A DNA stretch of 39,854 nt from a virus. Shown one piece after another: positions 4,838 to 27,921 of the stretch. The position numbers and the translations under genes were made by a program. The number at the start of each line of letters is the position of its first letter. The stretch's first letter is position 1. Where the stretch lies: positions 1-39,854 of the IMG/VR virus record IMGVR_UViG_3300010157_000121. One strand, 5' to 3'. The notes under the pieces were generated by a model. The model was not told the origin of the DNA, did no database searches, and saw only the letters and a list, made by a program, of their open reading frames with translations.

Positions 4838-4839
4838 CT

Positions 4840-6447: not shown

Positions 6448-6455
6448 CTTAAGCA

Positions 6456-8531: not shown

Positions 8532-8539
8532 ATATAGAC

Positions 8540-8914
8540 ATGGCTACCTTTATTGGATTTAATACGATAAATCAAAATAAACAATTTGTATTGGTTGATT
8601 TTGATCTTATAAAACAAGACTTATTAAACGCGTTCAATATAAGACAGGGCGAATTGGTGGGGTTACCGGGGTATGGTACCTTGTTATGGGATTACTTGTT
8701 TGAAAATCAAACAACGGAAACACAGACAGCCATATATAACGAAATTCAACGTGTAGCTGGCGGCGATCCCCGTATATACATCAATGATATCGTTATGTTT
8801 CCACAGGAGAATGGGATATTAGTACAGATCCAACTTCAGACCGTAGCCACAACTGATGCACAGATTTTATCTATATTTTTCAATCAAAATCAACGCAGTG
8901 CCAGCTATGTCTAA
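8540..8914 (+). CDS. gp25: gp25-like baseplate wedge protein (GPW/gp25 family)
   Basis: A 124-residue protein, close to the usual size of this family (T4 gp25 is 132). It shows DFDLIKQDLLNAFNIRQGE at residues 20-38, then GLPGYGTLLWDYLFEN at 41-56, the family's most recognisable block. GGDPRIYINDI follows near 74-84, a variant of the conserved E-P-R motif with Asp replacing Glu (D76-P77-R78). The C-terminal strand is GILVQIQLQTV. gp25 proteins start the sheath and tie it to the wedge core built by gp6 and gp7 equivalents. That matches the context: the gp6-like gene follows after a short gap carrying a late-promoter-like octamer. Confidence 0.9.
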   Translation: MATFIGFNTINQNKQFVLVDFDLIKQDLLNAFNIRQGELVGLPGYGTLLWDYLFENQTTETQTAIYNEIQRVAGGDPRIYINDIVMFPQENGILVQIQLQTVATTDAQILSIFFNQNQRSASYV

Positions 8915-8938
8915 GTAAACTACCCAGTTTATTTTAGG

Positions 8939-8946
8939 CATAAATA
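8939..8946 (+). promoter_or_regulatory. T4-type late promoter-like octamer (CATAAATA)
   Basis: CATAAATA lies 19 bases before the ATG of the gp6-like gene in a non-coding gap. It matches the NATAAATA form known for late promoters of T4-like phages, recognised by a gp55-type sigma factor. It would give a very short leader that includes the AGGA ribosome site just before the ATG. Confidence 0.55.
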
Positions 8947-8965
8947 TCGTAATACTAGGATAACA

Positions 8966-11900: not shown

Positions 11901-12400
11901 GCGCAGTGACCGAACCTTTGCCACCGTCTATCGATGCATTAACATCTGCGTATGCTAGTCTTCAAAGCTATAAAATGATAAGTGATAATATGATTCTCAA
12001 CAGCGTCGAGTTCCAGCCGTTATTCGGTAGTAAGTCAAAAGAATCCCTGCGAGCCACTATCAAAGTTATACCCGCAGCTAATACTAATGCCAGTAACAAT
12101 CAGATACAAAATTTAGTATTGGCTACGATGAACGCTTATTTCGATATTGCGAACTGGAACTTTGGGCAGACCTTTTACTTCTCAGAGTTATCTGCGTATA
12201 TACACTCGCAAGTAGGTACATATGTGGCATCGGTGGTATTAGTACCGTTAAACCCGCAAAAATCTTTTGGCGACTTATATGAGATTCAATGTGCTCCTTA
12301 TCAGATTTTTGTCAACGGAGCTACTATACAAGATATAGAAATAATCAATTCATTAACCAGCACGAATCTACAGACGGCTCCTGGTAGCGGAGTAATATAA
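8966..12400 (+). CDS. gp6: gp6-like baseplate wedge protein
   Basis: A 1144-residue protein, larger than T4 gp6 (660). The N-terminus carries the family block: SFVDYLQQYYPETFNDYIES, then ALLDVMAFMGQSLAFRTDLN, ENYIDTAERRDSVIKLANL and SYTPQRNTEASGYL (about residues 35-115). The middle is a long beta-rich region with GEDYTNFPF, typical of this family, near residue 430. The last about 130 residues (NSVEFQPLFG, then KESLRATIKVIPA, then FYFSELSAYIHSQVGTYVAS) resemble the gp6 C-terminal dimerisation region. gp6 forms the ring of the inner baseplate and drives its opening. The ATG is preceded by AGGATAAC and by a late-promoter-like octamer. Its stop overlaps the next gene's start by one base (TAATG), so gp6 and the giant downstream protein are probably made in a coupled way. 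Confidence 0.9.
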   Translation: MATTTRQTVLFGVEDWRRIYQTYSEGNFQSYDFETLRKSFVDYLQQYYPETFNDYIESSEFIALLDVMAFMGQSLAFRTDLNTRENYIDTAERRDSVIKLANLVSYTPQRNTEASGYLKVFSVSTTENLTDYNGVSLSNVTVNWADPSNFDWQEQFITIINAALVDTQRVGNPANDQVILGIDTQEYTINLVPGYIPVIPYTATIDGINMPFEAVNATSLYETYVYEPPPLPNGQFNVLFRNDQLGYASANTGFFFYFKQGVLQSQDFNLAESISNRTVNINIDGINNTDIWLYQLDNLGNLRQEWSMVPSVYAAAVEQMTSTLRTVFSVASRTNDQITLVFGDNVFSAIPVGQFRTYVRASNGLQYIINPEQMQSVQIPISYVSRTGSIETITFTCGLTTPVSNAAPRETITQIKERAPARYYTQNRMVNGEDYTNFPFTTYNSIIKSAALNRSSIGTSRYLDLVDPTGKYSSTNVFGSDGALWYTNTTPAFTFTWQTTNNINNVILNDLTPILIQATLKQFYYANFSRPDLSALNYSWHESTTIVNETTGYFMNSNGTPVAVGSSASNNAKFIVEGALVKFIPPTGYYFSGSNELKPGVPTSDQDHLVIWASPTAVIGDGTNNGLGNLTSGVGPVVFNTYVPTGAIASSVIPLFVTTFTNTVQQSIYNQIFINANFGLGYDNTGAITGTPYTWYVITATNLAVGATWSQTNAGNTSGASLDASWLIQCTYDGSQYTTVSRSLDYYWGSVVEVRFFFDTVQTIYDSRTGTVISDFIKVLKTNSQPNTNYPLLGDIQLKIIGQPVLTDGLVDDYQILVSYQDYNNNRIPDDPDFFEEIVGVSPASGAATGLSYVYFQQTVDFDNLERYLLQPSGVVDDDWPTLAAIEVVKEQYPTGKVFYAYQEGNFYILTLTLQGARVLTLTSGWIAQVGRQDLYFQYRHNSALTNLIDPGSTNIIDLYVVTLEYYTAYKQWIQDTTGAVTEPLPPSIDALTSAYASLQSYKMISDNMILNSVEFQPLFGSKSKESLRATIKVIPAANTNASNNQIQNLVLATMNAYFDIANWNFGQTFYFSELSAYIHSQVGTYVASVVLVPLNPQKSFGDLYEIQCAPYQIFVNGATIQDIEIINSLTSTNLQTAPGSGVI

Positions 12401-15400
12401 TGGCTAATCAAATTCGCAGCGTCGATTTCTTACCACAGATATTTCAAACTCCAGTCAATACACAGTTTTTATCGGCTACATTAGATCAGCTTATCCAAGA
12501 ACCAAAGTATAAACAGACACAAGGTTTTATAGGTCAAAAAACTGGACCTGGGGTTAATCCCAATGACAACTATGTAATCGAACCAACTGCCAGTCGTAAC
12601 AATTATCAACTAGAACCGGGGGTGGTATCACTCAACCCAACTACATCGGCACTTGATGATGTCATAACTTATCCAGGTATACTAGATGCATTGAGTACAC
12701 AAGGCGGAATAGTCAATCAAGCTGACAGATTATTTGAAAGTGAATATTATTCTTGGGATCCATTTGTAGATTTTGACAAGCTAAACAATTATGCTCAGTA
12801 CTACTGGCTACCAAACGGCCCAGATGCTGTCACCGTAGCCGGAACAGAAGTGCCAACGACGCAAACATTTACGGTTACTAGAGCCAACGGAGCTTACACC
12901 TTTAACGGGTACACTGGCGATAACCCCGCGATAACACTGGTTAGAAACGGCAACTATCAATTTAATGTAGCACAAAATACTGCCGATGCCATCGACTTCC
13001 GCGTTACAAATAATGGCACAAGTTCTTGGGCTATCGATTACCAACCCAACCCAACACTAACTCTAGTTCGTGGCAATACATATTCTTTTAATCTCATACA
13101 AACTCTGCCTTTAGCATTTTACATCAAAACAGAGTTAAGTTATGGCACGACTAATATATGGTCAGAAGGTGTATCTAATAATGGTGCCGTACAGGGGTTA
13201 ATTATTTTTACAGTTCCACAAGATGCGCCCGATGTGCTTTATTATTGTAACGATTTAGAATTTAATCTACGTGGACAATTAAATATCGTCGATGCTACTT
13301 CAGGCACTGGTCCAGATTTTTGGATACAAACACAGCCAGGAACAAAAGGTGTATTACCCTGGAGTCCTAACATTTCTAGCCGAGATGTGCTGGGCGTAAG
13401 CAATAACGGTATTGATTTAGGTACTGTATCGTTTAGTGTTCCGGCAAGTACCGCACAAGATTTCTATTTTTCCTTAACAAACATCGGCAGAGTCGATTTG
13501 ATAGCCGGGTCGCAATATCAGTTTGACAAAATCAATGGCGTAACAGTAGCAAGTTTTCTAGCCTCGTACCCTACTGGCATTGACGGTATAACTAACATTA
13601 ATAATAGAACTTTAGTTTTTACCACACAAACTGCTAGTCCAGAACTCGGAGGTTGGTATTATCAGAGCCCCTTCTCTCCACAAACTAGAACCTCCCCTCC
13701 CAATGTACCTGATCCGGCCGACGGGCAAGCAGGAACCTTCGATGCTTCGCCGTTTGATCAAAGTACCCCTATAACTGATCCGGCGATACAGTTTGGTGTC
13801 TGGCGTGCTAATTATGTCACTGTCAACGGAGTACAGTTTATACAATTAACCTCAGTCCAGAATGTAGCTACATTATCACAACTTACTGTGGGAATGGGTA
13901 CTCAATGGGTGAATACGCAATGGTGGAAAAATTCACAAGGCTACTATGTAGAAATGCCAGCACTGACGGCACCGTTATCTACTTTATTCTATCAAGACAG
14001 CGAAGATCCCAATATATTTGGTACAATTAATCTTATAAATCAGAATTCCAATGCTAGTATTGATGTTGACATAGATATTTTAGGTAAAAAAACATATACT
14101 AGCCCAAACGGCGTAACTTTTACTAACGGACTCAAAGTAATATTTCAAGGAGCAGTAACTCCGTCATCTTATCAGGGAAATAGTTACTACGTTCAAGGTG
14201 TGGGCGCAGGTATCGTGTTACTACCAGTATCAGAATTCGTTGTACCTGAAACATATGCGACAGAAGTAAGCTCTATCCAAGTAACTGGAGCAACCAGTAC
14301 GGGAACAGAAGTAACGCTGACATATGTTACGCAATCATATGTTCCGTTTGTCACTGGCGAAATAATAATCGTTAGTGGGATCGTATCAGAAACTGGAAAT
14401 TACAACGGTGTTTTTACAGTACTGTCCGCAACTGAATCACAGGTAGTATATACCAGTACTGCCATTGGTGTTTATGTCAGTGGCGGAAAAATTGATGCTT
14501 ACGGTAATCAGCCACTAACACCTGATTATATAACCATCAGTCAAGCCAGTATCGACCTTAACCCATGGACACGAAGCAATAGATGGTTTCATACAGATGT
14601 ATTAAAGTTGACAGCGGCGTATAATAAGACATCGCCTAGTTATGTAAATGTACAGCGAGCCAAAAGACCCATCTTAGAATTTAGAGCTGGCACAAAATTA
14701 TTCAATTTTGGGTCAGACGGTGTAATACCTGTAAATGTTATCGACTTTACACAGACTAATGCCTTAGAAAATGTTAATGGGCAGACTGGTTATGGAACTG
14801 ATGGTTACACATTGATACAGGGCAGTTTGATTATTTTTGCCGCGGATGCTAATCCTGCTGTGCGCAATAATATCTATCAAGTTACATTTATCGTACCAGA
14901 TCCTGCGAATCCTACACCCATTATCGATCTAGTTTTAGTGTCTGGTTACGATCCAATATTACTAAATCAAAGTACTGTTTGTCTTGACGGATTGACATTG
15001 ACCGGAGTAAGTTTTTACTATAACGGAACCAATTGGGTAAAATCTCAGCAAAAGACTGCGGTCAATCAACCGCCATTGTTTGATGTATTTGACAGTAACA
15101 GCAATAGTTTTGGTGACACTGAATATTACCCCAGTACTAACTTTACTGGCTGTAAATTATTAAGTTACGCAGAAAATCCCGACAATCCAGTTGATAGTGT
15201 ATTGGGGATTCCGTTAGCTTACTTTAGTATCGATAATATAGGAGACATATTATTCGATAATAATTTATACACTGATACATTTGTATACACAAAAACTAAT
15301 AATGGCATCACTGTGGATGTCAGCACTGGGTTTGTTCGACAGTATTTGACTAGAACCCTTTACTCCACTGAACTTGGCTGGCAGACGGCTGCGATACCCT

Positions 15401-18400
15401 CGCTACCAAGACAGCAATTTCAATTTAATTATTCTGGTCAACCACTACAGCTTGATGTTTTAGCTGCTACTAGTTTAGGAGTTCCTGCGGTACAGATTTT
15501 CATTAACAATGTCTATCAATTATCAAACAGTTATACATTATCGGTAAACGCTAATACAAATACTACCGTTATAACATTGACGGGTACAGGGTATGTTATC
15601 GGCGATATCATCGAAGTTTTAGTTTATAGCTCAGAAGTTAGTAACGTGGGATTTTATCAAGTTCCTGTTAATCTAGAAAATAATCCCTTTAACGGTAATA
15701 GTAGTCAGTTTAGTCTCGGCACGATTCGTCAACACTATGCTACTGTCTGCGAAAATCTATTAGGATTCCAGGGCACGATAAATGGCCCTAACAATACACG
15801 AGATCTGGGTAATATCGTTCCCTATGGGCAACAGATATTACAGCAATCTTCGCCTTTGACGTTAGCGGGGTATTTCTTAAGGAGTATTAACTACGATATA
15901 TTTGCTTCAATCGAATATAATAGTCGAGAATATGTCAAATATAAAAACAAATTATTAACGGCTGTAACACAATTGAATATAAGTGTAGGGCAATCTGTCA
16001 GTAGCATCCTCGATGCGGCTATACAACGTATTACAGTAAGTTTTACTAACTCTAGTCCATTTTATTGGAGTGATATGCTGCCAACAGGCGCCAATTATAC
16101 TTCAAACTCAACTACCGTAAACCCCATTACTACAGCGACATTTAATACCGTACAAACATATAATTTCACATCTAGTAACTACCTAGGATTGTTGGTTTAT
16201 GTAAATGGCGTATTATTATTGAGAGGCCCTCAGTATGTGGTATCCACAGAAGCTCCTAAATTAACTATCTTAATTCCGTTAAACATCGGAGACGTTGTTA
16301 CAATTAATGAATACCCAACTACTATACCTAGCTGGTGCCCGAATACGCCCAGCAAGATGGGATTATATCCTAAGTATACGCCAGAGATTTATCTCGACGA
16401 AACCTACTCGGAACCTACTGTGGTAATACAAGGACACGATGGTAGCATTACTGTCGCATTTGGTGATATAAGAGACCAAGTTTTACTAGAATTTGAAAAA
16501 AGAATTTACGACAACATCAAAGTTGATGACAATCCAATTCCATTGACAACTGACGAAGTAGATCCAAACTTTTATCCAGCACAGACAACAGCATTACTGC
16601 CGGGATTTTTCCGCAGTACACCTTATACCTATGCTGAAGTAAATCAGATACTCAGCGAAGAATTTTTAACTTGGGTCGGGCAGAATAAAATAGATTACAC
16701 ACGGCAGAATTATGTTGCCGACAATCCGTTTAGTTATAATTACGGCCAATCAGCTAATCGCATAACTGGTGAAGAATTTTTACAAGGCAACTGGCGCGGA
16801 ATTTATCGTTATTTTTACGACACTGAGACACCAAATTCTACACCTTGGGAAATGGTGGGATTCAGCGAAGAACCTAACTGGTGGGTACAACGTTATGGGC
16901 CAGCCCCTTACACATCTGGCAATACAGTATTGTGGGATGATTTAGAAGCTGGTATAGTGGGAGATCCTGCTGGACCATATATATTATCAGAATACGCTAG
17001 ACCAGGTTTGAGCAAAGTTATACCAGCAGGTAGCGAAGGGGAATTATTATCACCCTTAGAATGTGTAGTAGGTAAAAACGACCCGCTATCTTTCCAAGCA
17101 TCGTGGGTAGCAGGAGATGGTGGGCCAGTACAAGCTTCTTGGTGGAATTCGTCATCTTATCCGTTTGCCATAATGAGACTATTGGCTCTCACTAAACCAG
17201 CACAATTCTTCTCACTGTTTGCTGACAGAGATCTATATCGCTACAACACTACGTTAGGGCAATATCTCTATAATGGCCGTTATCGCTTAAATGCCAGCGG
17301 TGTTCAAATTTACGGTAATGGCGTTAGCAAAGCCAGTTATATAAACTGGATCGTCGATTACTATAGTCAATCGGGTGTGAATAGCACTACCGCATTAACC
17401 GAAGCATTGGCAAATCTAGATGTGAGACTATGCTACCGCATGGCGTCATTCTCAGACCCTGTATACCTACGACTATTCACTGAACGTGCTGGACCTAACT
17501 CTACTAATAATAGTCTGTTAATTCCTCCAACAAGTTACGACTTATTATTTTATAAGAATCAACCTTTTAATCAGATCACTTACAGCTCGGTTATCGTCAC
17601 AGTCACTGAACTGGCAAATGGCGGCACAGGATATGCGGTATTTGGATATAGTAATGTACAGCCCTATTTTGAAGTTTTAGTCAGCAATCCGTTTGGTCCT
17701 TACCAACCTATTACTGCTGGTGGGGTTACGGTCAAAGTACCTACCCAGTACACCACCAATACTACCTTGATACCTTACGGTTACGTCTTTACCAATACCA
17801 CTAGTGTATGTGATTTCTTGTTGAGTTACGGTGGATATTTAGAAAATCAAGGTATAATTTTCAACAATGTGGAAAACGGGTACACACTAAATTGGCAGCA
17901 GATGGCGCAGGAATTTTTATATTTTTCTTCGCAAGGCTGGACACCAGGAACGATGATAAATCTCAACCCTTGTGCCACTAAAATCACTGCGAGCCAGCCC
18001 ATCAGTATCGTTGATACTATCGCTAGTGTTACCCCGGAAAATATGCTGTTAGATCAGAATCATAAAGTTCTGGATGTGAGAACTATGGTGGTTTTCCGTG
18101 ACGGTAATACATTTTCAGTATCAACCACAACTGGGCAGACTATTAATTTCTTAACACTAAAATTTACCAATTATGAAGATATGGTAGTATTGAACAACAC
18201 TAGCCAATATCAAGATTTAATATATAATCCAATAACGGCAGCACGTCAATCCAGGCTCAGTTTGATCGCATCAACTACTACCGAGTGGGACGGTCAGTTA
18301 AATGCCCAGGGCTTTATATTAAATCTAAATAACGTAAAACAGTGGCAATCGTATACAAAATATACTAAAGGTCAGATAGTTTTATATAAAAATACCTACT

Positions 18401-21400
18401 GGCAAGCTGTCACTATTAGTCAACCTCAGGAAACATTTAATTATAACGATTGGGTAAAGAGTAACTATCAATTAATAGATCAAGGTCTATTGCCTAACCT
18501 AGCCAATAAAGCTGACCAACTAGTCAGTGCTTACGATGTATATCAAGCTAATCTGACCAGCGACAATGACTTATTTGCGTTTGGATTAATCGGCTTCCGT
18601 CCACGTCAATATATGACTGATATGAATCTTGACGGGGTTACACAGGTTCAATTATATCAACAATTTATTGGTACTAAAGGAACCAGACTAGCAGCACAAG
18701 TTTTTGGAAACGCTAATCTAGGAAAAGAATCTGGCCAATATAATGTTTATGAAAACTGGGGCGTTTTATCCGGTACATACGGAGCACAGGCTAATAGAAG
18801 TTATTTTGAAATTCAGCTAAATCAGTCATTGTTAAGTTACAATCCGTCAACTATACAAATCATCGTACCAGGACAGACGAGCCAGGCCAATCAGACTGTT
18901 TTTGTTGACAATTTATGGCGTGAAAGTTACAAGATCACTTCGCCTGATGTCCTTCCCACTACCTACGAAAATAGTAACCTGCCTACCGCGTTACCGACCG
19001 CAGGTTACGTGTGTTTAGATGACGTCAATGTTACAGTCTTTAGTATAGATGATCCCAGTGCTATCAGTGCTGATCTTAATAACATTGGTATTGGCACTTA
19101 TATATGGATAGCAAAAATCAACAGCTATAATTGGGGTGTCTACCGTGTAGCAGAAGTGCCTGGGCAGATGAGATTGTTAACGAATGGACTTAACGGTACT
19201 AGTACAGTTTCATTCAGTGCCGCGCATGGTTTGGCAGTTGCTGATTTAATCATCATAAAATATTTTAATCCTGCGGTTAACGGAGTGTATAGAGTATTAG
19301 CGATTCCGTCAATCACTACGATTACTATCGCATATACTTTCACTAATACTAATTTAACTTCAGTTGGTGGCACTGGTTTGGTATTTAGATTGCAACCGGC
19401 CCGTGTAAGCCAGGCTAGCGATATATCAACATTAGATTATGTTAATAATCTATTACCCGGAGACATCGTTTGGGTAGACAACGACGGTAACGGGCACTGG
19501 GAAACTCTTAAGAAGCAGTCGCCCTTTGTGGCAAATACCACTATTATTCCTGAATTTACTGCTGATACCCAATATGGAATAAGTGTTGCCCAGACTATCG
19601 ATAGTTTTGGTGCACTCGTCGGAGCCCCAGGGGCTAACAACGGGGCTGGCGCGGCATTGGCATATTTCAAAGGAGCCACTACTGACTATCAGTATAGTAC
19701 TATTTTTGTTCCTTCGGCGACAGGGTCAGCTGGATTTGGAAATTTAGTAAATTTTGGTAATCAAAACTGGGCAGTAGTCGGAGCTAGTAATAGTCTGTCG
19801 GGTGTGGGCTATGCTACGATGATCTATCGTAATTCACTCGATGGACAATATAGTATAACACAGTTACTAGTTCCCCCGGATCAGAATTTTACTGCTATAG
19901 GATTTGGAACATCGGGCGTTATTAGTACAGATGAACATTGGATGTATATTGGAGCTCCGAATAATAATACAGTATATGCTTACGAGCGTGTTGATGTGGT
20001 TGATCAATTTATAACTTATACCACAGACGGTGTTACAACTAGCTTTGCCTATAGTGATGCTATACAGATTAACTATGCCGAGATAAACCAACTAATTGTT
20101 ACTTTAGGAACTTTAGTCGTTACACCTAATGTAGATTACACCATCACCTCAAACAATGTAGTGTTTATCGATGCGCCATTTAGAGGTCAAACTCTATCAA
20201 TTACCAGAAGACAACAGACACAACTAGATCAAGTAATTTATAGCAACTTATCACAAAGTTCAACATCTGGTACTGGACAAGGCGCAACATTTACTGTGAC
20301 TAACACTCGCGGTGTATACTCGGCTATATTAACTTATGGCGGTAGTGCTTACAACATAGGCGACACTCTCACCATTAACGGTAGTGTCATCGGAGGCGTC
20401 ACCCCGGCCAATAATCTAATTATCGTAGTGACTAATGTTGCTGGTGGCGTGTTAGTGAGCTTTACGACTGCCGGCGGGGGCATAACCGATACGAGCTCTT
20501 TCAATCTATCTTCGTCACTGTATACGGCTACTAACATTTATAGCTTTACTGTTGTTGTAGATTCTCGGATACAGCGTCCTTATCTAGATTATACATTTAA
20601 CAACACTTCTGCCGAGTTAACTTTCCTATCCGGATCTAATCCCACAGCAGGCGCAGCAATCATCGTAACTTCAGAAACATACTGGCAGTATGTCACTAGC
20701 ATAACCGCATCTGATTCTGCGTATGGAGATAAATTTGGAGCAAGTGTAGGCACGACCACAGATGGTCGCCAGATCATAATAGGGGCACCCAACGCAGAAG
20801 TCAATACCATAGGAATGGCCGGTAAGGCTTATGTCTTTGACCGCAGCGTAATTAGATATATCGTTTCTAATGCTAGTCAGACGACCTATCCGATGTCAGG
20901 TACGATAAACTCACCAGTCGCAGTAAGTGTTAATAATGTCTTTTTATTGACCACAGCACAATCGATCACAGGACAGTATACTGTAAGTGGCAATAATATC
21001 GTGTTTTCTAATATAACATTCACCATCGGTGACATTATACAGATTGAAACTAACGAAATCCAGCAGATACAAGAATTCAATTCTGACACACCTAGTTATG
21101 AAGCTAAGTTTAGCACAGCAATCGATGTATGTCCGTTAAACTGTAGTATCTACACAGGAGCTCCGTTTGACAGTACATATGTTTCGCAGGCAGGGTCAGT
21201 AGATCACTTAGTTAATCAGTCGAGAGTATACGGAGTTACAACGACAACTATCGCAAACCCTGTGCTGACCGCATACGGAACATTGAGAATCAACGATAGT
21301 ATAATCGCTATACCTCCCGCACCATTAAATACTGTAACAGGTTTTGCCGATGCCATCAATAATTCGGGCATACCCAATGTTGCTGCCGCGACTACACCTA

Positions 21401-24400
21401 ACTTAAATTTTATAGGCGACGGGGTAACCAAGGCGTTTTATATAGGTACTTTATATTCTTCGACATCTTCGTACACAACTGTAGTATATGTAAATGGCGA
21501 GCTACAAGTTTATGGAGTAGATTATTCATACGACAATACGTCGGAACAGATATATTTTGTTTACGCTCCTCAGAGATTTGCTGAGATAACCGTCGTATCC
21601 GGAAGATTGACTATCAGTATCCAGAATTCGGCAGCCGCTGCTACTGGAAATATGATAACAGTTTTACCTGGTGTAGAAAATTCTGTGTTTAATGAATTAG
21701 GATTTGATACATTTGTGTTTACACAACAGATATTAAGCCCTGCCCCTACCGTATATGGTCAATTTGGCGCTTCGCTTAGTATAGATACTAATGCCATTAA
21801 TTTAATCGTCGGCAGTCCTAACGGCAATGTTTACGAGGCAACGACATTTGATGCTGGGCAGACTTATTTTGACGAGCATAGCACTACGATCTATAATGCC
21901 ATACTCAATGGCGGTGTTGCTTATACTTACGATTATTTCCCAGGTAGCACTAATACACTTAGCAATGCCGGGCAATTTGCGTTTGGGCAACAGATTTACA
22001 ATAGCAGTACTGTTAGTGGCGACAGATTTGCTGTCAGTGTAAATTATACCAGCGGTAGATTGTTGATCGGAGCTCCAGCAGGTTGGCCTACGAATATAAC
22101 GAATTTAAGTTACGCTACAGTATTCAATAACCCAACTAATTCGCCCGCATGGACACCTATACGCATACAGCAACCGGTCGTAGATGTTTACGCTATAAAC
22201 GGAGTATTCAGTTACAACGGTGGGCAGGCGATAGGTGTAAATGTAACGGCTACCGCCGGAACACAAACTTACTTTGACTTCTTTGATCCGTTACAGGGAA
22301 AAATATTAGGTGTCGCTAGACAAAATATTGATTATATCGGGGCAGTAGATCCTGCTCAATATAATGCAGGTCCGATTCATAATAATGGCAATGTATGGGG
22401 TAGCGAGAGACTTGGTGAGATGTGGTGGGATACGAATACTGTGAGATTTATCGACCCCAATCAAGATGATATCGTATATGCTAGTAGAAGATGGGGAACT
22501 ACATTTCCCGGCAGTAGTGTAGACATCTATCAGTGGGTCGAGAGCTCAACCCCACCAGCAAACTATACTGGCGCCGGCACTCCGTTAAGCACCGTCAGTT
22601 ATTCTGTCAGTTCACGATTAGGTCAGAATAATATTTTTCAGACACTATATTATTTCTGGGTCAGGGGTATCACCACAATAGCCAGCGGTGCTGGTAAAAC
22701 TCTTAGCTCTAGCGGTATTAGTAGTTATATAACTGATCCTCGCAGTAGCGGACTACCTTATATCGCCGGGCTTAATGCTTCAACTATAGCCATTTACAAT
22801 GCACAGAATTTATTAGAAGCTACAAATACTATTTTAAGTATAGGATTTGATCGAGAGATCAACGATGCTGTGGTACATCAAGAGTATCAGATAATTACCG
22901 ATGGTATTGCTAACAGTTTCTTAAACACTCAACTGTATCGCAAATTATTAGATAGTTTGTGCGGTGTCGACATTGCTGGCAATGCTGTGCCTGATCCTAC
23001 ACTAAGTTTAGGCATGCAGTTTGGAGTACAGTTTAGACCTCGTCAAAGTATGTTTGCTGATAGATTTACGGCACTACAAAATTATCTAGGTCGTGCTAAC
23101 ACAGTACTGTCTCAATATCCCATAAGCGAAACCCGTAGTTTTAGTCTACTCAATTCTGTACAACCTATACCAACTGCCAGTTCCGGAGCTTGGAATTTTG
23201 AAGTACCTAATTTAGAAATATTAGGGTTCCAGAATCTCGCAACTGTGCCTGTTGGTTATAGATATCTAGTATTGAGTGATAGTAGCCAACAAGGTCGATG
23301 GACAATCTATCAAGTACAATCTAATAAATCTTTGTATTTGGTACAAGTACAGAGTTATAACACTCCGTTATATTGGTATTACATTAATTGGTATCAGCCT
23401 GGATATAATAGCAGTATCGCCCCTGTGGCCGCAGTACAAAATTATGGCCAACTAATAACATTGCCAGTTACTACCGCTTCAGTTGGATCTAGCGTTCGTG
23501 TAATAAGCAACGGCGCAGGCAAGTGGGAAATATATCTGCGCACTGGAGTGGGCACAGCTAATGATTGGACTCGCGTGGGATTAGAAGATGGCACCATCGC
23601 ATTTTCTCAATCGTTGTGGAACTATGCCAAAGGTAATTTTGGATTTGATGCTGATGTGTTTGATGCTCAATACTTTGACGAAACCCCGCAAGTTGAAACG
23701 AGATTTATTCTCAGAGCCTTAAACGAAGAGATCTACGTCGACGATTTACAGATCGAACGTAATAGCAGTTTGATCTTGATGTTCAATTATGTGTATAGCG
23801 AATTTACTGATCCATCGTGGCTGATTAAAACTAGCTATGTAGATGTCAATCATAATATCAGATCATTACAACCTTATCAAACTTATCTTCAAGATAATCA
23901 GAATTTCGTATTAGATTATTTCCAAGAAGTTAAGCCTTATCATGTACAAGTGAGACAATTTAATCTAATTTACAGTGGTGAAGACGATTTCTTAGGCGAC
24001 TTAACTGACTTTGATCTGCCGGCATACTGGGATACCGCTTTAGAAATACCGCAGTTTGTTAGCCCGATACTGACGCCGTACGACACTGCCATCACGCCAG
24101 TGTATTCCACTGCGAGCGATGCTGCTTCTAACGCACAGATCTGGGTACCTCCTAGCTTATATAATCAATGGTATTCTAATTATTTGCTGAGCATACAAAG
24201 CGTAGCCATCGCAAACGGAGGGTCAGGTTATACGGTCGCACCCACAATTACGGTAACAGGAACATGCGTGACTCCTGCTGTAATGACCGCAGTTATCAAC
24301 GGAGCAGGACAAGTTGTGGCTATCAACGTTGTCGACTCTGGGGTCGGATATCGTACTACAGCAATAATCAATATCGTCGGCGGCAATGGGTCAGGGGCCC

Positions 24401-27400
24401 AAGCTGTTGCCTATATGGGCAATAATCTAGTACGTTCGATCAAAACCACTATAAAATATGACCGATATGAATACCAAACTACGATTATAGATTGGGTATC
24501 GGGTACAACCTATACGGCAGGCGAACAAGTAAGATATGACAATACTGTATGGCAAGCTAACAGTACTGTAATCAATACGATTTTTGATCCTAGTCAGTGG
24601 ACTTTAGTAAGTGCCAGTGAATTAAGCGGGGTTGATCGTACTATGGGCTACTATGTGTCAACCCCCGATACCCCAGGGTTATCCCTGCCGCTATTAATCG
24701 ATGGTATCGATTATCCCGGGGTTCAAGTTACTGGATTAAACTTTATTGACAACCCCGGGTTTGGTCGCGGTGGATTTGCTGCTTTGCCTTTTAATAATGT
24801 ATCATACGATGCCAACGGTAAACCTACTTATTATATAGGTCTATTAGATACTATTTTTGAAAGTTCATATGTTGATCCTTATCTGGGTACGCGAGCCACA
24901 GATATAAACATAGTAGGCGGAGCATATGTTGATACATTCGAAAGTCACGCCCCCGAAGAGTTAGTGCCGGGCATAGAATTTGACACATTGGATTATCGTG
25001 TGTATACAACACCCGGAGCTGACTGGCAAGGCTTTGGGCATGGATTTCCGCAGAGTCTAGTTAATGTAATCTACGATGCTGCTCAGGCAACCATTAGTTT
25101 TGCCAATCAACAGCCATACCCAATCGCACTTGTGATAAATGATGATACTCAAGGTAGATATCTAGTATCTGGAATAGATTACACTGTTGACTGGGCAAAT
25201 CAGTCTTTCACCATACTTGCATCATCTACGATAGTCTCAGATGGTGACCAGTTAGGTATCAATGTATTTGAATTAGGAGGTGGGAACCAACTATTCAAGG
25301 GAGTATACAACGGAGCTGAAGTTTTAAATGCTCTGACTGTACCAGTCGAATACAGTTTAATATATGAATTTGCGATTTTTGTCAATGGGGTCTATCTATC
25401 TAGCAGTAATTATACCTATGCTGCGGGCGCAGAGTACGGCACTACTCAGATCCAGTTTAATTCAACTTATACCGACACCGATTTTATCAGTTTAGTGGCC
25501 ATCGGACCAACTACCATAGACGGTGTTACGACTGACTATTCATGGAGCGTACCAGTAACACAACCCATCATCGCCACAGGCAGTATAGCATATCAATTAG
25601 ATAATAGTTTAGATTATACCAACTCCGTAAACGCCATCGTAACATTAGCTGGCACACGTGCCCGCACAGCAGCTGGCATCGCTTATGTAGGTGACGGAGC
25701 TACTACTTCGTACACGGTGGCACAAAGATTGGGCATCGATCAACTTACAATTTTACCCACAGATGTGAGTGTGTATTTAAATGACGTACTTCAAAACTTT
25801 TCAACTTACGCGGTAGACCCAAATACAGCAGGAACTGTGGTAATATTTAATGTTGCCCCCGCTGCCGGGACAAGAGTTTATCTAGCAGTAGCTACAGGGG
25901 CACAGGTCATCATCGATCCAGTATCTAAAATCTTAGAGTTTGTGCCTGGTCGTGGATTGACGCCCTTCACGGGTCAGATTATTACAGTTACTACATGGAA
26001 TGATACCAGAGAACAACGAGCACTCACACAGGTATTTGTAGGCCCAGTTACAGTAGGTGAAACTGTATCTGAAGGTTTTGATAGCACAGTGTTTGATCCG
26101 TTATTTGTGCCTGCAATAGAACCTGCTAATTATCCCGGCCCATTTCCTGCTACACAATTAACAGCGGGTTTTGTATATCAAATTAATGCTGTTGGTACTA
26201 CAGACTTTACAGTTATCGGAGCACCAAATAATAATGTTAACACAGTATTCACGGTACAAACTGCGATTCCTGTAGAATTAATCTTACCCAATAGTGTATT
26301 CTATTGCGAAACAAATAGTCTTCCGTTAGTAGTAGGTGGGGTAGTTGTAATTTCTGGTATGCTATCGACAGGCACGGGTATGGCCACTATTCCAGATTTA
26401 TTACCCCAAGGGTTTAATGTTACTCCTTTCAACACCGGAGCTTTTAACGGAGAGGCCATTACAATTTACTATATTGTGACCACAAATGGATCAACTAAAT
26501 TCCAATTATCCGAAACTCCCGGGGGTCCAGTGATTATAACTACGCCCGGGGCCGTTCAAGGATTATATTTTAATACTCAAGCATCCGGAAATGGTAACGC
26601 TCTCGAAATGCAGTATATTCGTGATACTAGTACGAATTTATATAACGATGAACCAGGCTCATTTAATTACACCGAAGGAACTACTATTTCAACAAATAAT
26701 CTAATTCTCGGATCTGTAATTACAGACGCAGAAAGATTATGGGTATCATTAAATGGGAAAATCCTAAACACCACACAAGACTTTACGTTAGCGACAACTT
26801 TTATTGGTAGCGAATTCAGTACAAGTGCTTTTGGTATTGGCGGTTTCAGTTATACGATGGCAGCATCCGAACTCGTATTGACCTCGGGGATCTTACAACC
26901 AACTGACACTGTAATGGTCACCCAATTCACAAATTATGTAGTACCCGAATCGATGACTTTCCGACTATTTCAAGACATGCGAGGAGTACAGGCTACATAT
27001 AGAATTACAAATGCAACTACGACTACCACAGCTAGTCCAGTGGCTTTAGCAGACGACGTCATATATGTGGTCGACGCCGGGGCATTATCTATTCCTAATT
27101 TTATGGCAAACGTATGGGGAGTCGTTACTATAGGCGGTGAGCGTATTATGTATCGTAGTCTAGATCTTGTTAATAATTCCATCAGTAATTTGCTACGTGG
27201 TACCGCAGGCACAGGAGCAGCGGCACACGATGCTGGTACGTATGTATATGACGAAGGCCGGGGAAATTTGATGCCAGAACAATTTCAAAATTACATTGTC
27301 AGCGATACTGCTCTAGCTGACGGGGTAACTAAAGAATTTACAGCAACAAATATTTCATTAAGTGGGTCAAATCCCATAGTTTGGATAGAGACCGATAGTT

Positions 27401-27738
27401 ACTCGGGAGCTACTACGGTAGTCGACGGTATTAATTATTACTATGCAAAACAAGCAGTGCCCGCAAATACAATTATCACCGATACCACATACTGGCAGCC
27501 GTTGAATAGAGCTGTACAAGTTTACGTAGGTGGTACACTACAAACATCAGGTTATACGTTCTTAAATGAAAGCCCGGTCACTATAGAATTTGCCAGCGCT
27601 CCTGCCGCAGGAGTGGATGTTACTATATTAGTGAAACGTGGAGTAATTTGGTACGCTCAAGGCATGGATACTGCCAGTAACGGAGTACCTTTACAAGAAA
27701 CTAATACAGCAGCAGCTAGATTCTTACAAGGCCATTGA
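12400..27738 (+). CDS. Giant 5112-residue mosaic baseplate protein (gp7 position)
   Basis: One uninterrupted 15.3-kb frame covers 38 percent of the window. The first 150 residues look like a conserved baseplate segment: SVDFLPQIFQTPVNTQFL, YVIEPTASRNNYQLEPG and LFESEYYSWDPFVDFDKLN followed by YYWLPNGP. Then come, in order: a degenerate cupredoxin-like domain (217-299); a Trp/Tyr-rich region (about 720-2000) with RSNRWFHTDVLKL and FRSTPYTYAEVNQILSEEF; a chitin-binding-like module (1981-2021); an interrupted set of seven FG-GAP repeats (2387-3244); a second chitin-binding-like module (4029-4074); and a conserved block with GTRATDINIVGGAYVDTFES. Small beta-modules containing VYVNG are scattered throughout. 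T4 gp7, encoded right after gp6, has 1032 residues; this gene has the gp7 position but about five times the length. It is probably the outer wedge arm plus peripheral binding modules. No catalytic motif, transmembrane segment or frameshift was seen. Confidence 0.82.
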   Translation: MANQIRSVDFLPQIFQTPVNTQFLSATLDQLIQEPKYKQTQGFIGQKTGPGVNPNDNYVIEPTASRNNYQLEPGVVSLNPTTSALDDVITYPGILDALSTQGGIVNQADRLFESEYYSWDPFVDFDKLNNYAQYYWLPNGPDAVTVAGTEVPTTQTFTVTRANGAYTFNGYTGDNPAITLVRNGNYQFNVAQNTADAIDFRVTNNGTSSWAIDYQPNPTLTLVRGNTYSFNLIQTLPLAFYIKTELSYGTTNIWSEGVSNNGAVQGLIIFTVPQDAPDVLYYCNDLEFNLRGQLNIVDATSGTGPDFWIQTQPGTKGVLPWSPNISSRDVLGVSNNGIDLGTVSFSVPASTAQDFYFSLTNIGRVDLIAGSQYQFDKINGVTVASFLASYPTGIDGITNINNRTLVFTTQTASPELGGWYYQSPFSPQTRTSPPNVPDPADGQAGTFDASPFDQSTPITDPAIQFGVWRANYVTVNGVQFIQLTSVQNVATLSQLTVGMGTQWVNTQWWKNSQGYYVEMPALTAPLSTLFYQDSEDPNIFGTINLINQNSNASIDVDIDILGKKTYTSPNGVTFTNGLKVIFQGAVTPSSYQGNSYYVQGVGAGIVLLPVSEFVVPETYATEVSSIQVTGATSTGTEVTLTYVTQSYVPFVTGEIIIVSGIVSETGNYNGVFTVLSATESQVVYTSTAIGVYVSGGKIDAYGNQPLTPDYITISQASIDLNPWTRSNRWFHTDVLKLTAAYNKTSPSYVNVQRAKRPILEFRAGTKLFNFGSDGVIPVNVIDFTQTNALENVNGQTGYGTDGYTLIQGSLIIFAADANPAVRNNIYQVTFIVPDPANPTPIIDLVLVSGYDPILLNQSTVCLDGLTLTGVSFYYNGTNWVKSQQKTAVNQPPLFDVFDSNSNSFGDTEYYPSTNFTGCKLLSYAENPDNPVDSVLGIPLAYFSIDNIGDILFDNNLYTDTFVYTKTNNGITVDVSTGFVRQYLTRTLYSTELGWQTAAIPSLPRQQFQFNYSGQPLQLDVLAATSLGVPAVQIFINNVYQLSNSYTLSVNANTNTTVITLTGTGYVIGDIIEVLVYSSEVSNVGFYQVPVNLENNPFNGNSSQFSLGTIRQHYATVCENLLGFQGTINGPNNTRDLGNIVPYGQQILQQSSPLTLAGYFLRSINYDIFASIEYNSREYVKYKNKLLTAVTQLNISVGQSVSSILDAAIQRITVSFTNSSPFYWSDMLPTGANYTSNSTTVNPITTATFNTVQTYNFTSSNYLGLLVYVNGVLLLRGPQYVVSTEAPKLTILIPLNIGDVVTINEYPTTIPSWCPNTPSKMGLYPKYTPEIYLDETYSEPTVVIQGHDGSITVAFGDIRDQVLLEFEKRIYDNIKVDDNPIPLTTDEVDPNFYPAQTTALLPGFFRSTPYTYAEVNQILSEEFLTWVGQNKIDYTRQNYVADNPFSYNYGQSANRITGEEFLQGNWRGIYRYFYDTETPNSTPWEMVGFSEEPNWWVQRYGPAPYTSGNTVLWDDLEAGIVGDPAGPYILSEYARPGLSKVIPAGSEGELLSPLECVVGKNDPLSFQASWVAGDGGPVQASWWNSSSYPFAIMRLLALTKPAQFFSLFADRDLYRYNTTLGQYLYNGRYRLNASGVQIYGNGVSKASYINWIVDYYSQSGVNSTTALTEALANLDVRLCYRMASFSDPVYLRLFTERAGPNSTNNSLLIPPTSYDLLFYKNQPFNQITYSSVIVTVTELANGGTGYAVFGYSNVQPYFEVLVSNPFGPYQPITAGGVTVKVPTQYTTNTTLIPYGYVFTNTTSVCDFLLSYGGYLENQGIIFNNVENGYTLNWQQMAQEFLYFSSQGWTPGTMINLNPCATKITASQPISIVDTIASVTPENMLLDQNHKVLDVRTMVVFRDGNTFSVSTTTGQTINFLTLKFTNYEDMVVLNNTSQYQDLIYNPITAARQSRLSLIASTTTEWDGQLNAQGFILNLNNVKQWQSYTKYTKGQIVLYKNTYWQAVTISQPQETFNYNDWVKSNYQLIDQGLLPNLANKADQLVSAYDVYQANLTSDNDLFAFGLIGFRPRQYMTDMNLDGVTQVQLYQQFIGTKGTRLAAQVFGNANLGKESGQYNVYENWGVLSGTYGAQANRSYFEIQLNQSLLSYNPSTIQIIVPGQTSQANQTVFVDNLWRESYKITSPDVLPTTYENSNLPTALPTAGYVCLDDVNVTVFSIDDPSAISADLNNIGIGTYIWIAKINSYNWGVYRVAEVPGQMRLLTNGLNGTSTVSFSAAHGLAVADLIIIKYFNPAVNGVYRVLAIPSITTITIAYTFTNTNLTSVGGTGLVFRLQPARVSQASDISTLDYVNNLLPGDIVWVDNDGNGHWETLKKQSPFVANTTIIPEFTADTQYGISVAQTIDSFGALVGAPGANNGAGAALAYFKGATTDYQYSTIFVPSATGSAGFGNLVNFGNQNWAVVGASNSLSGVGYATMIYRNSLDGQYSITQLLVPPDQNFTAIGFGTSGVISTDEHWMYIGAPNNNTVYAYERVDVVDQFITYTTDGVTTSFAYSDAIQINYAEINQLIVTLGTLVVTPNVDYTITSNNVVFIDAPFRGQTLSITRRQQTQLDQVIYSNLSQSSTSGTGQGATFTVTNTRGVYSAILTYGGSAYNIGDTLTINGSVIGGVTPANNLIIVVTNVAGGVLVSFTTAGGGITDTSSFNLSSSLYTATNIYSFTVVVDSRIQRPYLDYTFNNTSAELTFLSGSNPTAGAAIIVTSETYWQYVTSITASDSAYGDKFGASVGTTTDGRQIIIGAPNAEVNTIGMAGKAYVFDRSVIRYIVSNASQTTYPMSGTINSPVAVSVNNVFLLTTAQSITGQYTVSGNNIVFSNITFTIGDIIQIETNEIQQIQEFNSDTPSYEAKFSTAIDVCPLNCSIYTGAPFDSTYVSQAGSVDHLVNQSRVYGVTTTTIANPVLTAYGTLRINDSIIAIPPAPLNTVTGFADAINNSGIPNVAAATTPNLNFIGDGVTKAFYIGTLYSSTSSYTTVVYVNGELQVYGVDYSYDNTSEQIYFVYAPQRFAEITVVSGRLTISIQNSAAAATGNMITVLPGVENSVFNELGFDTFVFTQQILSPAPTVYGQFGASLSIDTNAINLIVGSPNGNVYEATTFDAGQTYFDEHSTTIYNAILNGGVAYTYDYFPGSTNTLSNAGQFAFGQQIYNSSTVSGDRFAVSVNYTSGRLLIGAPAGWPTNITNLSYATVFNNPTNSPAWTPIRIQQPVVDVYAINGVFSYNGGQAIGVNVTATAGTQTYFDFFDPLQGKILGVARQNIDYIGAVDPAQYNAGPIHNNGNVWGSERLGEMWWDTNTVRFIDPNQDDIVYASRRWGTTFPGSSVDIYQWVESSTPPANYTGAGTPLSTVSYSVSSRLGQNNIFQTLYYFWVRGITTIASGAGKTLSSSGISSYITDPRSSGLPYIAGLNASTIAIYNAQNLLEATNTILSIGFDREINDAVVHQEYQIITDGIANSFLNTQLYRKLLDSLCGVDIAGNAVPDPTLSLGMQFGVQFRPRQSMFADRFTALQNYLGRANTVLSQYPISETRSFSLLNSVQPIPTASSGAWNFEVPNLEILGFQNLATVPVGYRYLVLSDSSQQGRWTIYQVQSNKSLYLVQVQSYNTPLYWYYINWYQPGYNSSIAPVAAVQNYGQLITLPVTTASVGSSVRVISNGAGKWEIYLRTGVGTANDWTRVGLEDGTIAFSQSLWNYAKGNFGFDADVFDAQYFDETPQVETRFILRALNEEIYVDDLQIERNSSLILMFNYVYSEFTDPSWLIKTSYVDVNHNIRSLQPYQTYLQDNQNFVLDYFQEVKPYHVQVRQFNLIYSGEDDFLGDLTDFDLPAYWDTALEIPQFVSPILTPYDTAITPVYSTASDAASNAQIWVPPSLYNQWYSNYLLSIQSVAIANGGSGYTVAPTITVTGTCVTPAVMTAVINGAGQVVAINVVDSGVGYRTTAIINIVGGNGSGAQAVAYMGNNLVRSIKTTIKYDRYEYQTTIIDWVSGTTYTAGEQVRYDNTVWQANSTVINTIFDPSQWTLVSASELSGVDRTMGYYVSTPDTPGLSLPLLIDGIDYPGVQVTGLNFIDNPGFGRGGFAALPFNNVSYDANGKPTYYIGLLDTIFESSYVDPYLGTRATDINIVGGAYVDTFESHAPEELVPGIEFDTLDYRVYTTPGADWQGFGHGFPQSLVNVIYDAAQATISFANQQPYPIALVINDDTQGRYLVSGIDYTVDWANQSFTILASSTIVSDGDQLGINVFELGGGNQLFKGVYNGAEVLNALTVPVEYSLIYEFAIFVNGVYLSSSNYTYAAGAEYGTTQIQFNSTYTDTDFISLVAIGPTTIDGVTTDYSWSVPVTQPIIATGSIAYQLDNSLDYTNSVNAIVTLAGTRARTAAGIAYVGDGATTSYTVAQRLGIDQLTILPTDVSVYLNDVLQNFSTYAVDPNTAGTVVIFNVAPAAGTRVYLAVATGAQVIIDPVSKILEFVPGRGLTPFTGQIITVTTWNDTREQRALTQVFVGPVTVGETVSEGFDSTVFDPLFVPAIEPANYPGPFPATQLTAGFVYQINAVGTTDFTVIGAPNNNVNTVFTVQTAIPVELILPNSVFYCETNSLPLVVGGVVVISGMLSTGTGMATIPDLLPQGFNVTPFNTGAFNGEAITIYYIVTTNGSTKFQLSETPGGPVIITTPGAVQGLYFNTQASGNGNALEMQYIRDTSTNLYNDEPGSFNYTEGTTISTNNLILGSVITDAERLWVSLNGKILNTTQDFTLATTFIGSEFSTSAFGIGGFSYTMAASELVLTSGILQPTDTVMVTQFTNYVVPESMTFRLFQDMRGVQATYRITNATTTTTASPVALADDVIYVVDAGALSIPNFMANVWGVVTIGGERIMYRSLDLVNNSISNLLRGTAGTGAAAHDAGTYVYDEGRGNLMPEQFQNYIVSDTALADGVTKEFTATNISLSGSNPIVWIETDSYSGATTVVDGINYYYAKQAVPANTIITDTTYWQPLNRAVQVYVGGTLQTSGYTFLNESPVTIEFASAPAAGVDVTILVKRGVIWYAQGMDTASNGVPLQETNTAAARFLQGH
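13048..13296 (+). other. Degenerate cupredoxin-like domain in the giant protein
   Basis: Residues 217-299 read PTLTLVRGNTYSFNL, then GVSNNGAVQGLIIFTVP and DAPDVLYYCNDLEF, then LRGQLNIVD. This is the layout of plastocyanin-like domains: RG.TY.FN strand, GV.NNG turn, VP.DAP, YYC loop, G.I.VVD end. The copper-site Cys equivalent (C283) is kept. The position usually held by His before FYIKT is Ala (A239), and the usual His and Met after the Cys are absent. The fold is likely; copper binding is not. Confidence 0.55.
18340..18462 (+). other. Chitin-binding-like module 1 in the giant protein
   Basis: Residues 1981-2021 follow the pattern W..YTKYTKGQIVLYKNTYWQA followed by an acidic/aromatic tail ending YNDWVKS. 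This is the W..Y..G..V.Y....W.A layout of small carbohydrate-binding modules of the CBM5/12 type. Surface polysaccharide binding is an inference from that layout. Confidence 0.5.
19558..22131 (+). repeat. Seven FG-GAP-type repeats, interrupted, in the giant protein
   Basis: Seven segments share the pattern FG..V....D...L.VGAP.......G.AYVF: 19558-19674, 19726-19830, 19885-19992, 20716-20844, 21097-about 21210, 21751-21939 and 22012-22131. Clear cores include SFGALVGAPGANNG, GDKFGASVGTTTDGRQIIIG, QFGASLSIDTNAINLIVGSP and RFAVSVNYTSGRLLIGAP. Seven is the number that closes an integrin-alpha-like beta-propeller. The runs between repeats 3 and 4, 4 and 5, and 5 and 6 hold inserted beta-modules of about 80-240 residues. 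The fifth copy is the most divergent. Confidence 0.7.
24484..24621 (+). other. Chitin-binding-like module 2 in the giant protein
   Basis: Residues about 4029-4074 read IIDWVSGTTYTAGEQVRYDN, then VWQA, then FDPSQWTLVS. This is the same W..G..Y..G..V.Y....W.A....P....W pattern as at 18340, and a better match to CBM5/12-like modules. Confidence 0.55.
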
Positions 27739-27777: not shown

Positions 27778-27921
27778 ATGGAAAATAAAACAACTACTCA
27801 AACACCGCAAGTTCAAAAACCTCAAAAAAGACCCGACGATACTGGTCATGTATCTGTAGATGGATTTGTGAAGATTTTTGATCCAAAAACTCACAAAGTA
27901 TTTGTGGAGCAAAAAGCATGA
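27778..27921 (+). CDS. 47-residue mini-protein related to the next gene product
   Basis: A short frame from ATG at 27778 to TGA at 27921. The first half is Gln/Lys/Thr/Pro-rich; the second half ends DGFVKIFDPKTHKVFVEQKA. That end aligns with the N-terminal motif GHIKITDRNTGEVLVDK of the next protein, so it looks like a stand-alone copy of that hairpin. Its stop overlaps the next start as ATGA, and a GGAG at 27906-27909 lies inside it, serving the downstream gene. Lack of frame interruption, motif similarity and coupling support it as a real gene. Function unknown; probably a small virion or assembly component. Confidence 0.62.
   Translation: MENKTTTQTPQVQKPQKRPDDTGHVSVDGFVKIFDPKTHKVFVEQKA

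Follow-up and report, generated by a model that had tools for sequence, protein, structure and literature searches.

A giant gene directly after gp6 in a jumbo-phage baseplate operon encodes a putative wedge scaffold with a predicted integrin-alpha-like propeller

The stretch of DNA analysed here, referred to as the window, comprises 39,854 bases of the IMG/VR virus record IMGVR_UViG_3300010157_000121. Its most conspicuous feature is a gene of 15.3 kb that encodes a protein of 5112 amino acids and 556 kDa (Table 1). This giant gene starts with an ATG that overlaps the TAA stop codon of a gp6-like gene by one base (TAATG), and GGAG is found upstream of the start. On its 5' side lie a gp53-like gene, a gene for a hub-type protein, and the gp25-like and gp6-like wedge genes, the gp6-like protein being 34% identical to the baseplate wedge protein of phage CBB over 94%. 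On its 3' side, a small conserved ORF and a 201-aa conserved neighbour are followed by two genes, at 28608 and 31475, for tail fibres that carry S74 chaperone domains. The C-terminal end of the small ORF reads GHVSVDGFVKIFDPKTHKVFVEQKA; its motif is common to tiny ORFs of PA5oct and Atu_ph07, and also resembles the N-terminal start of the 201-aa protein (GHIKITDRNTGEVLVDK). Neither a tRNA nor an Rfam match was found in the window. Two further proteins, one of 691 aa (6456-8531) and one of 656 aa at 2867, had no PHROG match, and in the gene for the former a 54-bp unit is repeated perfectly in tandem (2.3 copies, positions 7637-7762), encoding GVSNLLGNNGVSNLLNGS repeats.

Table 1. Features of the giant gene and its surroundings (positions in the window; aa, residues of the encoded protein).
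Feature	Position	Strand	Basis
gp25-like baseplate wedge subunit, 124 aa	8540..8914	+	phrog_43 baseplate wedge subunit, 1.1e-10
gp6-like baseplate wedge subunit, 1144 aa	8966..12400	+	phrog_10646, 1.5e-281; phrog_219 (T4 gp6 family), 3e-22
Giant putative virion protein in the wedge slot	12400..27738	+	phrog_10938 over most of length; open frame; purifying selection
Conserved N-terminal segment, aa 1-148	12400..12843	+	26-36% identity, all jumbo relatives; HMM segment boundaries
Expansion site 1, aa 149-706	12844..14517	+	segment HMMs
Module common to cyanophage fibre-connector proteins, aa ~179-299 (in site 1)	12934..13296	+	phrog_677 'baseplate wedge tail fiber protein connector', 7.9e-10
Scaffold segment 1, aa 707-2290	14518..19269	+	conserved from Rak2-like phages through Atu_ph07
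Expansion site 2: predicted seven-bladed FG-GAP (integrin-alpha-like) propeller with inserted beta modules, aa 2375-3275	19522..22224	+	AlphaFold2; VIA-align; Pfam FG-GAP_2, 4.7e-10
Propeller blade 1, aa 2387-2434	19558..19701	+	blade HMM
Propeller blade 2, aa 2441-2479	19720..19836	+	blade HMM
Propeller blade 3, aa 2496-2538	19885..20013	+	blade HMM
Propeller blade 4, aa 2773-2817	20716..20850	+	blade HMM; Pfam FG-GAP_2
Propeller blade 5, aa 2899-2938	21094..21213	+	blade HMM
Propeller blade 6, aa 3117-3162	21748..21885	+	blade HMM
Propeller blade 7, aa 3204-3246	22009..22137	+	blade HMM
Scaffold segment 2, aa 3288-3852	22261..23955	+	conserved in all tested jumbo relatives
Variable C-terminal tail, aa 3853-5112	23956..27735	+	557-1706 aa among listed relatives; pN high compared with scaffold
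Beta module with weak CBM_5_12 (chitin-binding type 3-like) motif, aa ~3931-4054	24190..24561	+	phrog_460, 5.4e-8; PF02839, 1.9e-4, below Pfam cut-off
Conserved 47-aa ORF between giant gene and next gene	27778..27921	+	position and 'GHV..VKI.D' motif common to PA5oct and Atu_ph07
Conserved neighbour, 201 aa	27918..28523	+	phrog_11259, 5.6e-70; ~200-aa gene likewise placed in PA5oct, Atu_ph07, Phosso, SCTP-2

The first-pass annotation had described one gene that is open throughout and begins one base into the gp6-like stop, and both observations held. The frame contains zero internal stops, while the longest open run on the same strand in 200 shuffles of the window was 195 codons. Relatives of the giant gene were found in 17 environmental records; 15 of these reach the central segment, with frames of 4432-5356 codons that are likewise free of internal stops. 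Complete ORFs could be read in 12 of the environmental relatives, and most are 4.2-5.4 kaa long. In three pairwise comparisons pS was 0.66-0.78 (near saturation) and pN 0.04-0.26 in all regions, the inserts included. Because this pattern extends over the entire length, the giant cannot be a chance ORF or an assembly fusion; together with the open frames of the relatives and the shuffles, it also rules out a frameshift. Judged from these substitution patterns, every part of the protein is under purifying selection. Promoter-like and terminator-like sites inside the gene were no more frequent than expected by chance. In a close relative (IMGVR 3300025449_000025) the giant ORF of 4432 codons ends ~680 residues earlier, within the variable tail, and in another relative (IMGVR 3300027782_000030) the open frame at the FG-GAP match extends over 6350 codons, more than in any other member seen.

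A search of PHROGs matched the protein to phrog_10938, annotated 'virion structural protein', on four stretches (1.1e-123, 4.1e-69, 4.1e-67 and 3.5e-19). By sequence, the giant thus belongs to a catalogued family of virion proteins that are encoded after gp6 in jumbo phages of the Rak2/PA5oct/Atu_ph07 type. Its named homologues are CBB_236 (3340 aa), SCTP-2 gene 140 (3807 aa), PA5oct gp355 (3857 aa), Atu_ph07 gp180 (4449 aa) and Phosso gene 294 (4555 aa). The gene order gp25, gp6, giant and ~200-aa gene is common to the window, PA5oct, Atu_ph07 and Phosso; CBB has the order gp6 and giant, and the SCTP-2 giant gene is flanked by a 3096-codon frame and a 198-codon gene. The database record of PA5oct gp355 carries an ESI-MS/MS note (virion protein), and CBB_236 was detected in CBB virions by 21 peptides at 7.72% coverage (PMC5259590). 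A search of IMG/VR with the core segment returned at least 585 confirmed relatives, which means that the family is abundant. A scan of GTDB added six distant homologue loci (26-30% identity), mostly from marine MAGs. These contigs were binned in MAGs of Neomarinimicrobiota, Endomicrobia, Puniceicoccaceae and Gammaproteobacteria, and are probably phage contigs within those bins. The annotation of phage K64-1 (NC_027399) splits the family member into seven hypothetical proteins; annotation-based statistics of gene length may therefore miss such giants.

The giant size is consequently not new. The first-pass annotation had set the size of the protein against that of T4 gp7, which has 1032 aa, a contrast that proved misleading because the gp7 of Prochlorococcus phage P-SSM2 (PSSM2_111; phrog_2885) has 5195 aa, encoded by 15,588 bp, and the jumbo-phage family is giant as a whole. 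PHROGs also holds a 'baseplate wedge subunit' family of 4179 positions that T4 gp7 matches weakly.

To delimit conserved and variable parts, segment HMMs were placed on ~120 family members. This divided the protein into a conserved scaffold (aa 1-148, 707-2290 and 3288-3852), two expansion sites and a variable C-terminal tail. The earlier expectation of a conserved stretch of ~150 residues at the N-terminus was thereby borne out, as was that of a mosaic of beta modules in the remainder, for which the segment HMMs, the PHROG module matches and the propeller model all speak. Site 1 has 559 aa in the window and ranged from 336 to 671 aa in 97 environmental relatives; PA5oct, SCTP-2, Atu_ph07 and Phosso have 78-130 aa at this place, and Rak2-like phages only 4-8 aa. 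Its cyanophage-type module is 39% identical to Synechococcus phage Bellamy gp29 over 96 aa. Site 2 measures 92-120 aa in Rak2-like phages, 338 aa in PA5oct, 428 aa in SCTP-2, ~1410 aa in Atu_ph07 and Phosso, 997 aa in the window and 768-1145 aa in the environmental relatives. The phrog_460 beta module of the tail is common to other virion proteins. In comparisons with three relatives, pN was 0.04-0.15 in the scaffold and 0.14-0.26 in the inserts and tail, so that the inserts evolve about twice as fast as the scaffold.

A beta-rich mosaic with modules common to fibre-type proteins could also belong to a fibre or spike precursor expressed from the baseplate operon, in which the N-terminus would serve for docking and the remainder would form a peripheral fibre, possibly cleaved into pieces after assembly. 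The low peptide coverage of CBB_236 (7.72%; PMC5259590) would be compatible with such processing. We nevertheless regard a precursor of this kind as quite improbable: no protease site was identified in the giant, neither a repetitive shaft nor an S74 chaperone was found in it, in contrast to the fibres at 28608 and 31475, and, unlike fibres, it retains long scaffold segments in all jumbo relatives.

Next, we asked whether the giant is a gp7. The first-pass annotation had placed it in the gp7 slot of a T4-type baseplate operon, and with regard to position this is correct, since the gene directly follows gp6 in a wedge operon, after gp25 and then gp6. Homology to T4 gp7 could not be detected. 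When 20 T4-type gp7 sequences were compared with the giant family by hhalign, the probability stayed below 1% both for the entire chain and for each of six slices, whereas in the positive control the N-terminal part of cyanophage gp7 matched T4 gp7 733-813 at 88.5% (E 2.7e-6). Likewise, hhalign did not find T4 gp7 in a profile of the giant N-terminus (125 sequences), and neither BLAST, profile searches nor the six gp7 slices revealed T4 gp7 homology in the giant. The gp7-like phrog_17744, which T4 itself matches, had no match in the window or the jumbo records, and sequence-profile homology between cyanophage gp7 and the window scaffold was not detected either. The core motif FYxxKGIEESxxxLxKxL, which T4 and cyanophage gp7 have in common, was undetectable in the giant and in the other genes of the window. 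The possibility that another window gene is a hidden gp7 was also considered, but profile comparison matched none.

Structures were compared as well. A phmmer search of PDB sequences with the window protein produced no match. We modelled aa 1-1200 of an insert-free GAP32-type homologue (64 sequences), in which the first 158 residues had a pLDDT <50, as may be expected if this segment folds only together with gp6. The part corresponding to scaffold segment 1 was well modelled over ~690-1100 (pLDDT ~85). Foldseek with this model returned nothing from the PDB at E 0.001 or better, and matches in BFVD were mainly to its own family. The only VIA-align result was a small beta domain near T4 gp6 171-275 (Z 4.4), which we judged to be a common arrangement. 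No gp7 chain was present among the PDB matches listed for the model by Foldseek and VIA-align, its N-terminus being of low confidence. At the level of sequence profiles, the comparison with T4 gp7 that had been proposed earlier came out negative, and the assignment as gp7 follows from gene position, not from detectable homology. The view of an exceptional giant derived from T4 gp7 was therefore only partly supported, as the family and even larger gp7-slot proteins were already known.

These data bear on the idea that the giant is a true gp7 orthologue which has diverged beyond recognition, and whose N-terminal helices would supply one strand of the core bundle in a (gp6)2-gp7 heterotrimer, as in T4, P2 (gpJ/gpI) and the T6SS (TssF/TssG), the rest of the chain being decoration. 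Such architectures have been published for (gp6)2-gp7 of T4 and for (TssF)2-TssG (PMC6300606). In addition to the position directly after gp6, an N-terminal LP(E)xF...helix pattern, helices predicted at 9-17, 28-46 and 109-125 of the GAP32-type homologue, and the likewise N-terminal location of the T4-gp7-like core in the 5195-aa cyanophage chain are in agreement with this idea; the undetectable core motif and the low-confidence N-terminal model count against it. On balance we give it slightly less than an even chance. With no profile similarity to gp7 detected and a poorly supported model of the N-terminus, we infer rather than observe a (gp6)2-gp7 arrangement.

The new and interesting part of the protein is an integrin-alpha-like propeller within the scaffold. 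A blade HMM, built from the window blades and refined on their own family, identified exactly seven blades at aa 2387-3246 of the window protein (domain E 2.7e-16 to 3.6e-6). Of the 99 family sequences that gave hits, 76 likewise had exactly seven blades. The HMM detected no blade in P-SSM2 gp7 or in the wedge-slot protein of CBB, PA5oct, Atu_ph07, Phosso or SCTP-2. Pfam FG-GAP_2 scored above cut-off for one repeat (blade 4). Extra beta modules lie between blades 3 and 4, 4 and 5, and 5 and 6. An AlphaFold2 model of the propeller (57 sequences) reached a pLDDT of 89.7 and a pTM of 0.88. When this model was compared with known structures by VIA-align, all of the best 50 matches were integrin alpha chains (Z 36.6-41.1, 15-19% identity), the best with an rmsd of 2.6 over 354 residues. 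Consistent with this, 12 of 13 weak matches in a profile search of PDB sequences were integrin alpha. Since Foldseek returned WD40-type and other propellers at comparable E-values, the specific tie to integrins rests on VIA-align and the FG-GAP motif. No solved bacterial FG-GAP_2 propeller was among the listed structures, and the designation 'integrin-like' may thus partly reflect what has been solved. The fold prediction nonetheless points to a seven-bladed FG-GAP propeller of the integrin-alpha type. The calcium-binding DxDxDG motif of integrin blades was absent from aa 2375-3275. No PHROGs family covers the propeller region, a tblastn search of 50,697 phage records returned only single small modules with weak E-values (none covering >16% of the region), and none of the papers searched paired FG-GAP with a phage baseplate.

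The function of such a propeller can be read in two ways. FG-GAP propellers, and beta-propellers generally, are often assembly platforms, and integrin-type FG-GAP folds are not always adhesive. The propeller might accordingly be structural or enzyme-like, for example a protein-protein platform that attaches fibres inside the baseplate instead of a host-binding head, and the strong constraint on the region would suit such a role. However, relatives that share the scaffold either lack the propeller or carry unrelated cargo in its place, and the nonsynonymous change of the propeller is ~1.7-2.6 times that of scaffold segment 1. A variable surface part fits these two observations better than a platform, which we hold to be possible but rather unlikely. 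Its resemblance to the head of integrin receptors of animals makes the predicted propeller a good candidate for the part that touches the host cell.

FG-GAP proteins also occur free-standing in the same broad phage group. Atu_ph07 gp320 is a 393-aa protein with FG-GAP_2 repeats that is annotated as hemagglutinin and adjoins genes annotated as tail sheath, and Phosso genes 129 and 130 encode two FG-GAP_2 proteins of 392-394 aa. MS-confirmed virion proteins are described as abundant in the CDS 284-329 cluster of Atu_ph07 (PMC6102473), in which gp320 lies. At 5019-6200 of the locus examined, gp320 bears the annotation 'Streptococcal hemagglutinin', but its sequence looks like that of a propeller standing alone, with about seven FG-GAP blades. 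In Phosso, the adjacent genes 107 and 108 (3339-12827 and 12901-23979 of the locus examined) encode giants of 3162 and 3692 aa, annotated only as hypothetical, in which 17 and 33 blade-like FG-GAP matches, respectively, would suffice for several propellers per protein. Propellers that stand free in some relatives and are embedded in the wedge-slot protein of an environmental clade fit a scaffold that may have absorbed a peripheral adhesin. The earlier proposal that a wedge protein took up adhesin modules is upheld as regards a conserved scaffold, lineage-added beta modules of binding type and homologues in this slot that are virion proteins; homology to T4 gp7 found no support.

Taken together, we favour with reasonable confidence the view that the giant is a baseplate-wedge scaffold of a jumbo myophage related to Rak2, PA5oct and Atu_ph07, loaded with surface-binding heads that contact the host. 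Most likely, the three conserved segments would build a structural arm in every baseplate wedge, with the N-terminal segment as its anchor on gp6. This arm would have two permissive sites which, like the C-terminal tail, take up surface-exposed modules: in the window lineage, site 1 holds cyanophage-connector-like beta domains, and site 2 the predicted propeller with further beta domains between its blades. These modules would face outward and let the baseplate itself touch glycans or proteins of the host surface, adding to the contacts of the S74-type tail fibres encoded just downstream. Arguments for a wedge scaffold of this type are the family and synteny, the homologues detected in virions, the pattern of scaffold and expansions, the site 1 module, the propeller, the free-standing FG-GAP proteins and the constraint. 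Arguments against it are the absence of profile homology to T4 or cyanophage gp7, the N-terminal pLDDT <50, a modelled scaffold without a clear PDB match, the absence of the integrin calcium motifs, and the fact that FG-GAP folds of this type need not be adhesive. A bolder and, to us, doubtful extension is that a widespread environmental clade of jumbo phages built an integrin-alpha-like propeller into the wedge as a ring of receptor-binding heads, which would sense the host surface and may help to trigger contraction alongside the tail fibres.

What was a curiosity of size thereby becomes a testable architecture with a conserved wedge scaffold, two hot-spots and lineage-specific surface modules. 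At T4 stoichiometry, six copies of the 556-kDa chain would add ~3.3 MDa to the baseplate. The wedge-slot propeller belongs to no PHROGs family, and tblastn against the 50,697 phage records detected no relative of it apart from single small modules; in IMG/VR, however, it is common. Were it to bind hosts, the baseplates of jumbo phages would themselves bear adhesion heads, which host-range predictions based on fibres only would miss.

Compared with known systems, the giant resembles T4 gp7 in its gene position after gp6 and as a putative one-chain wedge protein, but T4 gp7 is far shorter and has no profile similarity to any segment of the giant. The giant gp7 of cyanophage P-SSM2 is likewise modular and occupies the gp7 slot, between gp6 and gp8; it holds a T4-gp7-like core, for which no counterpart was detected in the window giant. 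The jumbo phages of phrog_10938 agree with the window in the slot after gp6, the three scaffold segments and the giant size (3340-4555 aa), and their proteins are virion proteins where tested (CBB and PA5oct). They differ in site 1, which has 4-130 aa, and in site 2, which has 93-428 aa, or ~1410 aa without FG-GAP signal. Atu_ph07 gp320 and Phosso 129/130 are FG-GAP propeller-type proteins too, but are not fused to a wedge scaffold. The integrin alpha beta-propeller, finally, differs from that of the window by its low sequence identity and its DxDxDG motifs, and the window propeller stands apart by being embedded in a phage protein and by its beta modules after blades 3, 4 and 5. Both have seven FG-GAP blades and the same predicted fold (Z up to 41), and integrins too have domains inserted between blades, such as the alpha-I domain in some of them.
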